This document shows positions 10,115-14,091 of a DNA stretch of 36,163 bases, in pieces (the stretch's first letter is position 1; every line of letters begins with the position of its first letter). The notes beneath the pieces were generated by a model. The model made no database searches. It saw only the letters and a program-made list of their open reading frames with translations, and was not told the DNA's origin. The DNA lies in the NCBI GenBank assembly GCA_003242895.1, contig QKMY01000065.1, positions 1 through 36,163 of the forward strand, given 5' to 3'. Source of the stretch: Candidatus Margulisiibacteriota bacterium. GTDB taxonomy: Bacteria > Margulisbacteria > Riflemargulisbacteria > GWF2-39-127. The translations under genes were made by a program, and so were the position numbers.

Positions 10115-10362
10115 TAAATTATTGCAATCCTCTTATCGAAAATACCTGTTATTTTGCATCATCAAAACAGGAATGATTACTCTGTTGATCAAAACACACC
10201 ACAGCGTAGCAATCAAATTTTCCTACTATTTTTTCGTTAATAATAATTTCAGTAAACCCAGAAGAGCTAACGGTTATATAAAAAACAATTCTATCTAGTG
10301 ATCAAAATTATTTGAAAGATAAGAAAAAAAATGCTATAAGATATAATATAGGTGGTGACGAT

Positions 10363-10977
10363 TTGAGCTGGAAACAAATCATAGAATTATTACAACAAGG
10401 TGAAGGACCTTCAATCGAGTTTAAAAAAAACTTGTTGAATTCCATTGATTTGGCAAAAGATCTTGCTGCTTTTTCCAATGCTAAAGGGGGTTATATAGTT
10501 CTTGGCATTGATGATAAAAATGGTCATTTAATAGGAGAAACAGTCACTAAAGAATGGATTCTAGCCGTAGCTAAAGCAAAATGCAACCCCAAGCTTATCC
10601 CACTTGTTACTGAAATTGAGAAGGCAAACAAAAATATATTGCTAATCTCGGTCCATGAAGGAAATTCAAAACCCTATTTTGCTGATTCCAAATGTTATAT
10701 TAGAGATAATAAAATTACACGATTAGCATCCCTGGACGAAGAGAAGTCTCTCTCTGCAAACCTTAAGAATATTCATGAAGGCCTAAATAAAAGACAAAAA
10801 GATGCCCTCAACCACGTTCATGAGAATGGCTCGATTACTAATATGATCTATAGAGACCTTTTCAAGGTATCCCACAAAACTGCACATATTGAATTAGTAG
10901 AGCTTCTAAGGCAAGAATTATTAGCTACAGCAGGAAAAGGAAGAAGCACGTGCTACATCTTGCCTGAAATTAAATAG
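10363..10977 (+). CDS. AlbA_2 (Schlafen-type) putative DNA-binding/ATP-binding regulator with C-terminal winged helix
   Basis: The first 120 residues match the AlbA_2 fold found in Schlafen-like bacterial regulators: GEGPSIEFKKN, then DLAKDLAAFSNAKGGYIVLGI, LISVHEGNSKPYF and YIRDNKITRLAS. Residues about 135-200 look like a winged helix-turn-helix (KRQKDALNHVHENGSITN, then a recognition-like helix and GRSTCYIL). Partners and targets of such proteins are mostly unknown; many are transcriptional regulators and some belong to defence loci. The start is TTG 10363, chosen because AGGTGGTG lies 5-6 nt upstream and the protein then opens like its family (SWKQIIELLQQGEG). It is convergent with the methyltransferase gene, 6 bp apart. 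Confidence 0.8.
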   Translation: MSWKQIIELLQQGEGPSIEFKKNLLNSIDLAKDLAAFSNAKGGYIVLGIDDKNGHLIGETVTKEWILAVAKAKCNPKLIPLVTEIEKANKNILLISVHEGNSKPYFADSKCYIRDNKITRLASLDEEKSLSANLKNIHEGLNKRQKDALNHVHENGSITNMIYRDLFKVSHKTAHIELVELLRQELLATAGKGRSTCYILPEIK

Positions 10978-10983
10978 GCAGGG

Positions 10984-12051
10984 TTATTTACATTTAAGAT
11001 AAAACAAGTATTCAGTAACAACCCTTTTTTTAGACTGTCCTGCACCATTTCCAAAAACATTATATGGCAATTCAACAATATCAACGTGGCCTTTTTTCTC
11101 TAAAATTGTTAGCATTTCATTTCTTTCTAATAATCCTTCAGAATTATAACTGACAAATATATGCTCGGCTTTAATATGCTTTATCAACATCCGAAATGCT
11201 AGCTCTGCATATTTTACCTGAGAATAACGGCTTTTCAATAAATCGCGCTTGAACTTCTTGGTTTTCCCATAAACCTCAGGCTTATTCCATTTAACAATAT
11301 TTTCAAGAATATGATAATTATCTATATACTGACGGGTATTATACGGAGGGTCAATATAGACTACCTGAGTGTGAATGTGCTCGACTAGAATATTTGCATC
11401 CATAGATACTATTAAGTTTTTATTCTTACTAACCGCATAGTTTGGGTACTTCATTTCAAGTTTTTTATATACATTATTATCTATTTTATGTATCCCATTC
11501 ACCATCGATTTCGAACCTAAATGCTTTAGATAAGAATCATACTGCCCGCAGGTATTGGCACACTTATCAATTGAGTATATCAGACTAGTCAATAGGATAC
11601 TTTTCTCTTTAAAGTTGATTTCTCTTTTTTTATATATTTCTTCTATGGTATCTCGAATTTCATCTATAATTTTTGCATTCTCTATTGTAAAATAGCATCC
11701 TCCAAAATTATGACTAACATAACCATAATAACCATCTACCTGATTAAATTTATCTATAAGTTCATAAATCTTGGGGACCGATACCTCAATATTATTACAC
11801 CCGAAAAAAGCCTGATAAATTATATAATTAGAAAATAAAATATCATTAACTACAAGCTGAGCATCAGGAAATATTTTTTTTATGCCTTCTGCCACTACCC
11901 CAGTTCCAGCAAACAAATCTGCAAATGAATATATTTCACCAACCCGATCTATCATAATCTTTAGCAAGGGTGCTAATAAATTAGACTTCGATCCGAGATA
12001 TTTCCTATTCTGGATATTAAAAGTTTCTATAGGTTTTACTATGTTTTGCAT
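10984..12051 (-). CDS. D12-class DNA adenine-N6 methyltransferase, solitary
   Basis: The enzyme transfers a methyl group from S-adenosylmethionine to adenine N6 in DNA. The N-terminal motif X (NRKYLGSKSNLL, residues 15-26), the AdoMet-binding motif I (FADLFAGTGVVAEG, 43-56) and the catalytic motif IV (YIDPPYNTRQY, 232-242) appear in the order of the D12 (alpha) group. Residues between 75 and 215 form the variable target-recognition region. It is 355 residues long, longer than Dam. No restriction endonuclease is adjacent, so it is either an orphan regulator-type methylase or half of a degraded restriction-modification pair. The start has AGGAG about 8 nt upstream. The target sequence cannot be told from the protein. 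Confidence 0.88.
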   Translation of the reverse strand: MQNIVKPIETFNIQNRKYLGSKSNLLAPLLKIMIDRVGEIYSFADLFAGTGVVAEGIKKIFPDAQLVVNDILFSNYIIYQAFFGCNNIEVSVPKIYELIDKFNQVDGYYGYVSHNFGGCYFTIENAKIIDEIRDTIEEIYKKREINFKEKSILLTSLIYSIDKCANTCGQYDSYLKHLGSKSMVNGIHKIDNNVYKKLEMKYPNYAVSKNKNLIVSMDANILVEHIHTQVVYIDPPYNTRQYIDNYHILENIVKWNKPEVYGKTKKFKRDLLKSRYSQVKYAELAFRMLIKHIKAEHIFVSYNSEGLLERNEMLTILEKKGHVDIVELPYNVFGNGAGQSKKRVVTEYLFYLKCK

Positions 12052-12444: not shown

Positions 12445-12816
12445 ATGCAAATAACTAATACGATTTTTAATCCTACAATAAACACAGCATTGAATCAGAT
12501 CAATAATAGTGTCAATCAACTCAACCAAATCAATAAAATGGACATCGAAAATGAATACTTAAAAAAAGCACTCAACGTAGTAAGCATATCCTTAAACCAT
12601 GAAGTCAATAATGCCCTGACACCAATTTTTTTCATGTCAAACTTCTTCAAAAATAAAACTGATGATCCTGACTTAAAAGCAGCTCTTGAGATTATTCTAT
12701 TAGCTGCCAAAAAGATACAAAATACCGTAACAAGCATTAATAACCTGCAGAAAGCGGATGTAATACCAACAACTCAATACTTAGAAGGTATTACGATGTT
12801 AGATATTGGAAATTAA
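12445..12816 (+). CDS. orphan histidine-kinase DHp-like small protein, copy 1
   Basis: I do not know a named function. Residues 45-103 resemble the dimerisation/phospho-acceptor (HisKA) helical hairpin of two-component kinases. The H-box is SLNHEVNNALTPI, with H52 followed by an acidic residue and the NxL pattern. A second amphipathic helix (DLKAALEIILLAAKKIQNTV) follows, ending in YLEGITMLDI. No ATP-binding HATPase domain follows; the protein ends at 123 residues. The first 35 residues are Asn/Gln-rich and probably flexible. A good ribosome site (GGGAGAAAGGA) precedes the ATG. It is paralogous to the gene at 13720 and sits just upstream of thpR on the same strand. It could accept phosphate from a kinase in trans, form heterodimers, or be a kinase remnant. 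Confidence 0.7.
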   Translation: MQITNTIFNPTINTALNQINNSVNQLNQINKMDIENEYLKKALNVVSISLNHEVNNALTPIFFMSNFFKNKTDDPDLKAALEIILLAAKKIQNTVTSINNLQKADVIPTTQYLEGITMLDIGN

Positions 12817-12884
12817 TTCCTTGGTTATACAAACAGATTATCGACTTGAAATTGACCACTGAATACTATAAACTAGCTCTTAAA

Positions 12885-13424
12885 ATGAGAGCTTTTATAT
12901 CCTTTAAATTACCATATGAACTTATTTATTCCCTAAAAACTACTACACAAAACCTTAAACAGTTTGGTACAGATATTCGTTGGGTAACGCAAAATAATTA
13001 CCATATTACCATTTCTTTTTATGAGAGCGTGACTGAAACTGACTTCGAAAAAATCTTTATTAAACTATCTGAGACTTATTCTGAACTATCATCAATAAAG
13101 TTTTCACTAGCGTCTATTGAGATATCCCCGAACTTACATCATCCACGGTTATTATGGTTTAGGCTTAGCAATGAAACCCATTTTCAGGAAGTTTATAAAA
13201 CAGGAAACTTCGTGGACGACAACAAGTTCAAACCACATATCACGCTTGGTAGATTCAAGTCATCACAAAATATTGTAAATTTGGACTCCCACCTGCAAAA
13301 TAATTATTCTATCGATAAAATTGATAAAAATATTTATTCAATAAACACTATAGAATTCGTTAAAAGCACAATTTCCGATTCAGGTCCTACATATTCACTA
13401 CTTAAATCCATAAGACTTAAGTAG
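12885..13424 (+). CDS. thpR: RNA 2',3'-cyclic phosphodiesterase (2H family, LigT/ThpR)
   Basis: ThpR opens 2',3'-cyclic phosphate ends of RNA (and in vitro joins tRNA halves by 2'-5' linkage). The two catalytic HxT motifs are visible: HIT at residues 40-42 (NYHITISFY) and HIT at 118-120 (KPHITLGRF). The N-terminal MRAFISFKLP matches the family start, so ATG 12885 is preferred over the in-frame TTG at 12846, although no Shine-Dalgarno is evident. The length of 179 residues is normal. It lies between two DHp-like paralogues on the same strand, 68 bp after the first. An inverted repeat folds across its stop codon. Confidence 0.9.
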   Translation: MRAFISFKLPYELIYSLKTTTQNLKQFGTDIRWVTQNNYHITISFYESVTETDFEKIFIKLSETYSELSSIKFSLASIEISPNLHHPRLLWFRLSNETHFQEVYKTGNFVDDNKFKPHITLGRFKSSQNIVNLDSHLQNNYSIDKIDKNIYSINTIEFVKSTISDSGPTYSLLKSIRLK

Positions 13425-13427
13425 TGA
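13395..13427. repeat. inverted repeat across the thpR stop codon
   Basis: TCACTACTTAA and TTAAGTAGTGA form a perfect 11-bp stem around an 11-nt loop, and weaker pairing extends it. The thpR stop (13422-13424) lies in the right arm. There is no T-run after it on the plus strand, so it is not a typical intrinsic terminator. It may protect the mRNA 3' end. Confidence 0.6.
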
Positions 13428-13719
13428 GAATACAATGATGATCGCATATTAAATTAAAATATTTTATTATTCAAATAAACACCCACAAAAATGTTTACAG
13501 CTGACCCTGAAAAAAGTAATTTTAACGCTATTACTTCTAATTAAGGGGCCTCGATCGATAGATACAGATGAAAAACTACAAAAATAACTTCTCTAGCTAA
13601 CAGGATAATATACCGCATTTTTTTTATGCTGGAATAATTTAGCGCCTACCTATATAATATCACTCGAAATAAAAAGATATATTTTAATATTGTTTAAATC
13701 TCAACGTTAATTACATCAT
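13425..13719. other. 295-bp intergenic region
   Basis: The spacer between thpR and the second DHp-like gene is AT-rich with no coding signal. A TATAAT lies at 13653-13658 on the plus strand without a good -35. A short AT-rich inverted repeat (AAGTAAT / ATTACTT) lies near 13515-13537. Confidence 0.4.
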
Positions 13720-14091
13720 ATGACACTAACTTACAATAAAATAAAGAATATCAGTATTGACGAGCATTCTCAGCCAAGATTTGAATCGCCAATGGAAGTG
13801 TTGAATCATATTTCGACAACTTACAACCACGAAATTTTTAATGCGCTCCAGCCTATCCTTACACTTGCAAATATACACATAAAAAAAAGCATTGATCCAC
13901 AATCGAAACAAATTTGGGAAACAATACTCTCTTCATTGTACAAAATTGAAGATGTTGTTAAAGCTATCAATAAGTTAGCTTACATTAATACTATTCCAAG
14001 AACAGAGTATATAGAAGGAATCGAGATGATAGATATAAAAAAAATATTATCAGCTATAGAATCGAATTCTGAAGCCGTTGCAAGAAACTAA
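13720..14091 (+). CDS. orphan histidine-kinase DHp-like small protein, copy 2
   Basis: Function not recognised. It is the same length (123 residues) and layout as the protein at 12445. An H-box-like TYNHEIFNALQPI (H37-E38) is followed by a hydrophobic second helix (KQIWETILSSLYKIEDVVKAI) and the shared ending RTEYIEGIEMIDI. The two copies are clearly related over about 75 residues but are diverged elsewhere, so the duplication is old. There is no ATPase domain, receiver domain or membrane helix. No ribosome site is evident before the ATG, so the start is less sure; M25 is another option that keeps the whole DHp hairpin. It converges with the PorV-TPR gene, 9 bp apart. Confidence 0.68.
   Translation: MTLTYNKIKNISIDEHSQPRFESPMEVLNHISTTYNHEIFNALQPILTLANIHIKKSIDPQSKQIWETILSSLYKIEDVVKAINKLAYINTIPRTEYIEGIEMIDIKKILSAIESNSEAVARN

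Follow-up and report, generated by a model that had tools for sequence, protein, structure and literature searches.

Introduction

In three-part hybrid kinases of the ArcB and BarA type the HPt domain is a monomeric bundle without a HisKA match. In the split kinase HK1/HK2-TcrA of Mycobacterium tuberculosis an ATPase-less phospho-acceptor is phosphorylated by a separate ATPase-only partner. Proteins denominated “HisKA, no HATPase” form a recognised class in archaea that is listed in P2CS as “possible incomplete histidine kinase”, and Galperin et al. 2018 (PMC5847659) put forward a phospho-acceptor, phosphotransfer or phosphatase role for them as a proposal only. Phosphotransferase activity is known from kinases whose ATPase domain is degenerate, PhyT being an example for which Spo0B and ChpT are named as earlier cases (PMC5898713). 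In isolation, the DHp domain of HK853 is homodimeric, associates with its regulator in a 1:1 molar ratio and acts as a phosphatase (PMC5727384), the latter being discussed further in PMC7005713.

Here, we describe two small DHp proteins from a member of Candidatus Margulisiibacteriota, the large family to which they belong and the C-terminal tail by which its members can be told from complete histidine kinases.

Two paralogous DHp proteins without CA domain

The window (the whole analysed stretch of 36,163 nucleotides, contig QKMY01000065.1) contains the following features:

12445..12816, + strand: DHp1, CA-less DHp protein, 123-aa ORF with Pfam HisKA match
12598..12618, + strand: H-box of DHp1, HEVNNAL (H52-E53-V-N-N56-A-L58), from the sequence
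12778..12807, + strand: tail motif of DHp1, YLEGITMLDI (Y112-L-E-G115-I-T-M118-L-D-I121), from alignment and model strands
12885..13424, + strand: thpR, RNA 2',3'-cyclic phosphodiesterase (TIGR02258)
13720..14091, + strand: DHp2, CA-less DHp protein, 123-aa ORF, paralogue of DHp1
13828..13848, + strand: H-box of DHp2, HEIFNAL (H37-E38-I-F-N41-A-L43), from sequence and alignment
14008..14037, + strand: tail motif of DHp2, YIEGIEMIDI (Y97-I-E-G100-I-E-M103-I-D-I106), from alignment and model

The first-pass annotation had presented these genes as two orphan DHp paralogues of 123 residues on one strand that lack an ATPase domain, and this description holds. Both proteins are 43% identical over 81 residues spanning H-box to tail (E 6e-21), and neither of them matches HATPase_c, i.e. 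the CA domain that follows the DHp in a complete histidine kinase is absent. DHp1 exceeds the Pfam HisKA (PF00512) cut-off of 26.9 bits with 28.3 bits; DHp2 on its own reaches 13.6 bits, which is under the cut-off, and matches the family profile built here with E 2.4e-19, being itself one of the 71 rows of this profile. The pair thus has the composition of “HisKA, no HATPase” proteins (HisKA with its histidine, without HATPase). HPt (PF01627) is matched neither by DHp1 and DHp2 (Pfam scan, E<=10) nor by the 80 relatives described below, and the searched ORFs of the window gave no match to HATPase_c, a receiver or a further kinase. No relatives of DHp1 were found on viral contigs and no plasmid-borne relatives were found.

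DHp1 consists of an N-terminal coiled-coil helix, the DHp hairpin and a C-terminal β-hairpin tail, and in DHp2 the DHp hairpin is followed by the β-hairpin tail and a short helix. The predicted phospho-acceptors are His52 in DHp1 and His37 in DHp2. A Shine-Dalgarno-like AGAAAGGA precedes DHp1, and no obvious Shine-Dalgarno site was seen on inspection of the start region of DHp2.

In the tree, which was built from few columns and from which only this grouping is used, DHp1 and DHp2 are sisters (support 98/92) with branches of 0.51 and, for DHp2, 1.28 changes per column; their next relative, weakly supported, is a GAF protein of the same genome (contig C63). Therefore the sequences suggest that the pair probably arose by duplication following the loss of a sensor domain. 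DHp1 and DHp2 could in principle be decaying, functionless remnants of such a duplicated sensor-DHp-tail gene of the C63 GAF type, as there is no sensor domain, no neighbouring partner and no Shine-Dalgarno site for DHp2 and both branches are long. We consider this very improbable, since both frames are open, H-box and tail are kept despite 57% mutual divergence, DHp1 is preceded by a good Shine-Dalgarno site and a further stand-alone member of 129 aa is found elsewhere in the genome.

The middle ORF scores 91.6 bits against TIGR02258 (cut-off 65.7), so thpR indeed lies between the pair and all three genes are on the + strand. The TIGR match starts only at residue 14, which makes ATG 12885 a likelier start than TTG 12846. 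An inverted repeat AGCTCTTAAAATGAGAGCT at 12875-12893 surrounds this likely start; it was marked terminator-like by the scan and could be chance. The proposal that the three genes form a functional operon tying a phosphorelay to RNA end processing can appeal to the common strand and to the 68 bp between the DHp1 stop and the likely thpR start, but DHp2 begins another 295 bp beyond thpR, no LigT/thpR gene occurs near any of the 80 relatives (surroundings of up to 4 kb on each side) and no DHp gene lies within ~1.5 kb of the five thpR genes detected elsewhere in the phylum. A module including thpR is thus hardly credible, and thpR is probably an unrelated neighbour outside the module. Upstream of DHp1 a Schlafen AlbA_2 gene (10312-10977) and a D12-class adenine methyltransferase gene (10984-12051) are located end to end in convergent orientation, which is unrelated to the DHp finding.

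Predicted structure

AlphaFold (AF2) monomer models were computed from 71-row alignments. The DHp1 model (mean pLDDT 89.7) comprises helices 10-71 and 75-101 and strands 109-113 and 116-119, and the DHp2 model (mean pLDDT 83.1) comprises helices 24-56 and 60-86, strands 94-98 and 101-104 and a helix 106-122. According to these models the tail is predicted to be a β-hairpin with the conserved glycine near its turn. The leading Foldseek matches are DHp domains, namely GacS (7n0e, TMt 0.91) and ERS1 (4mt8, TMt 0.83), with a best E-value of only 0.08, the small size of the fold keeping the E-values weak. The nearest solved structures, including the GacS-RetS complex, accordingly support the two-helix hairpin known from solved DHp domains, here followed by the tail. 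Profile matches to solved structures were mostly histidine kinases and ended before the tail or only grazed it.

A family with a C-terminal tail that excludes the CA domain

Scanning of GTDB genomes with an H-box-based pattern yielded 80 loci from Zixibacteria, Marinimicrobia, Latescibacterota, Deferribacterota, Calditrichota, Krumholzibacteriota, Nitrospinota, Nitrospirota, Bdellovibrionota and others. The tail was not part of the pattern, though hits with a tail may have been preferred in the confirmation by tblastn. All 80 relatives match HisKA (Pfam, E<=1e-3) and HATPase_c is absent from the Pfam families that they match; their other domains include GAF models (at least 36), Response_reg (18) and PAS models (at least 16). 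REC-, GAF-, PAS- and membrane-DHp-tail architectures occur. In 78 of the 80 loci, 61-88 residues lie between the H-box and the end of the ORF. Both exceptions (L123:3196-4125 and L169:3527-4678) have a receiver added after the DHp-tail, which shows that the protein can continue beyond the tail.

The consensus of the tail is Y-x2-[G]-x2-M-[IL]-D-[IL], with the tyrosine conserved in 69 and the methionine in 68 of the 71 aligned sequences. The ending Y[L/I]EGIxM[L/I]DI that had been noticed in both proteins is real and, as was supposed, under selection; it is not peculiar to the pair and marks numerous DHp proteins without CA as one large family. The H-box residues H, E(+1) and N(+4) are present in 71/71 sequences and in the window pair, an invariance that is partly circular as this motif was what the scan pattern required. 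In one membrane DHp-tail protein (L011:931-1773, identical with L207) the H-box reads HIINNHL, i.e. histidine and tail are kept and Glu(+1) is lost.

Within the phylum a profile search of 74 genomes was performed and 30 loci were inspected. The tail is present in 19 of them, which end at most 27 residues past the match with no CA following, ten possess a CA domain but not the tail, and in the remaining one (L202) the frame is disrupted. A second CA-less DHp gene (L224:661-2622) beside a GAF-DHp-tail gene has an incomplete tail ending in KDYPVISN and is perhaps decaying.

The genome of the window encodes seven CA-less DHp proteins, the window pair and five others:

C63: GAF-DHp protein
C22: two REC-DHp proteins in tandem
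C34: REC-DHp protein
C5: stand-alone DHp protein of 129 aa

All seven end in Y-x2-G-x2-[MIV]-[ILV]-x-[IL]. A regex census of HisKA-hit ORFs caught six of them, with the tail 51-58 residues beyond the H-box, and DHp2 was added as the seventh by eye; in the same census the tail occurs in none of the 27 H-box ORFs of this genome in which a kinase G-box follows. The window pair has the two features of this DHp-tail class, a tail ~50-58 residues past the H-box and no CA after it. None of the intact genes tested combines the tail with a downstream CA domain; the two are mutually exclusive there. The reading of DHp1 and DHp2 as the broken end of a kinase is ruled out, because in 80/80 relatives no CA follows the DHp and full kinases have no tail. 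The first-pass annotation had asked for further genes with H-box and tail and whether some of them are full kinases: many such genes exist across phyla, and the full kinases are those without the tail.

The C34 gene clusters with CheW, MCP, REC-PAS, REC-PAS-HK and two single REC genes. No ATPase-only partner adjoins DHp1 or DHp2 in the window. A solitary HATPase_c ORF without DHp is located on another contig of the genome (G000:C26:9922-10239, L092:1908-2228), where a DinG-like helicase gene precedes it by ~40 bp, and represents a probable kinase fragment or possibly an ATPase-only partner. The solitary HATPase ORF on C66 is an RsbW-like gene adjoining a STAS anti-anti-sigma-like gene.

Hybrid kinases and gene neighbourhoods

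In one genome of the same phylum (G056) two hybrid kinases carry the DHp-tail at the position of the HPt domain in three-part hybrid kinases. The first (L221:598-3285, 895 aa) has the order TM-HisKA-HATPase-REC-REC-DHp-tail and is apparently intact; the second (L220:1641-4973, 1110 aa) has the order 7TMR-DISMED2-HATPase-REC-REC-DHp-tail and its first kinase is degenerate.

Operon-like links to kinases and receivers are found as well. Krumholzibacteriota loci L176 and L181 show the gene order HK, single REC, PAS-DHp-tail, and in L186 of the same phylum a HK gene is close upstream of a PAS-DHp-tail gene. In L184 a HK gene is followed by a REC-DHp-tail gene after a gap of 6 bp. In ten mostly Marinimicrobia loci a PAS-DHp-CA kinase gene lies upstream of a GAF-DHp-tail gene on the same strand, with a gap of 5-114 bp where measured; these loci are mostly from related lineages and are therefore not independent events. 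In two of these loci the upstream kinases (L136:2236-3504 and L125:2294-3451) have lost the glutamate of the H-box (HAISQ and HSLGQ), the adjoining DHp-tail being intact, and the L136 kinase has a degenerate CA domain without the CA glycine boxes.

The ten kinase-adjoining loci, the altered kinases of L125 and L136 and the GacS-RetS complex among the nearest structures are what speaks for heterodimer partners or anti-kinases, a role in which a full kinase would bind the DHp-tail chain through its own DHp and either phosphorylate it in trans with its CA domain or be held off, as GacS is by RetS. For DHp1 and DHp2 we regard this as unlikely: 18/80 relatives have a receiver of their own and two chains even contain REC-REC, so that a kinase partner is not needed, and no kinase adjoins the window pair.

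Proposed role as phosphotransfer proteins

We propose that DHp1 and DHp2 are stand-alone CA-less DHp-tail proteins that act as dimeric histidine phosphotransfer proteins and assign a probability of roughly 0.55 to this reading. The two proteins would pair into DHp-type dimers. Lacking CA they cannot autophosphorylate and therefore depend for their phosphate on kinases whose genes lie elsewhere in the genome. The H-box histidine would take it from the receiver of a response regulator or hybrid kinase and hand it to another receiver, as HPt, Spo0B and ChpT do, and would represent the second histidine of a relay; the retained HExxN motif could also let DHp1 and DHp2 drain phosphate from receivers. 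Among the roles considered in the first-pass annotation, phosphotransfer with receivers is the best supported: the HExxN motif is kept and the placement in the hybrid kinases resembles that of HPt, and we infer it on these grounds; the receiver domains carried by 18 of the 80 relatives add to this, as do the operon-like links of relatives to kinases and receivers and the gene cluster around C34. Against a relay it must be said that no kinase or receiver gene is present near DHp1 and DHp2 and hence no partner can be named, that the HPt-like position comes from two hybrid kinases of a single genome, that in Marinimicrobia the adjoining gene encodes a kinase instead of a receiver and would suit a heterodimer or adaptor role just as well, that Glu(+1) is lost in L011/L207 and that DHp2 combines the long branch with the missing Shine-Dalgarno site.

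By analogy, phosphatase action appears as the main rival. DHp1 and DHp2 would then be dedicated response-regulator phosphatases, their DHp dimer binding phospho-receivers, hydrolysing via His and Asn(+4) and setting the off state, with any phosphotransfer incidental. The E/DxxT/N residues E(+1) and N(+4) are kept in the pair and in 71/71 family members, the isolated HK853 DHp has this activity (PMC5727384) and Galperin et al. put it forward for archaeal HisKA proteins without HATPase (PMC5847659). However, the conserved residues were partly selected by the scan pattern, the motif is common to kinase and phosphatase activity, and the REC-REC-DHp-tail order of L220 and L221 favours transfer, which leaves an exclusive phosphatase role rather unlikely.

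Going beyond the relay role of the pair, we tentatively suggest that DHp plus β-hairpin tail is a distinct and widespread signalling domain that might replace HPt in many uncultured phyla. Its tail would then be functional and not a relic, e.g. by capping the bundle at the CA dock or by reading receiver phosphorylation, and DHp1 and DHp2 would be its minimal free-standing form, possibly serving many orphan regulators of the cell as a general relay pair.

DHp-tail proteins generally carry the annotation of histidine kinases but cannot be kinases, a point also made for archaea in PMC5847659, and the tail offers a simple, testable signature by which they and full kinases can be told apart. Hybrid kinases with a DHp-tail at the HPt position suggest a phosphorelay layout missed by Pfam HPt searches, and therefore relays in these phyla would be under-counted. 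Strings of kinase, receiver and DHp-tail genes make the role of “HisKA without HATPase”, a long-standing question, directly testable.

Comparison with known systems

The idea of an undescribed module has to be narrowed. “HisKA, no HATPase” was already recognised as a class (PMC5847659); for the tail and its exclusion of CA no mention was found in titles, abstracts and passages of the open-access literature, to which the search was confined. Like that class, the relatives described here combine a PAS, GAF or REC sensor with a C-terminal HisKA, a conserved histidine and no ATPase; the proteins there are archaeal, no conserved tail is reported in the cited passages, and the window pair has no sensor domain.

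The phospho-acceptor of HK1/HK2-TcrA in Mycobacterium tuberculosis is similar to DHp1 and DHp2 in lacking an ATPase domain. In contrast, no ATPase-only gene adjoins the window pair, the solitary HATPase fragment being located on C26. RetS-GacS, with DHp-DHp contact between different kinases, is a close structural match to the models, but RetS has an ATPase-like domain and the window pair has none.

Spo0B, ChpT and PhyT/PhyP are also derived from histidine kinases, have their histidine on a DHp and relay between receivers (PMC5898713). Compared by domain layout, they keep a degenerate ATPase-like domain, whereas the chains of DHp1 and DHp2 end past the tail and have only the β-hairpin after the DHp. 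With the HPt of three-part hybrid kinases the DHp-tail shares the position after the receivers, as seen in L220 and L221, but unlike HPt the DHp-tail domain is a HisKA.
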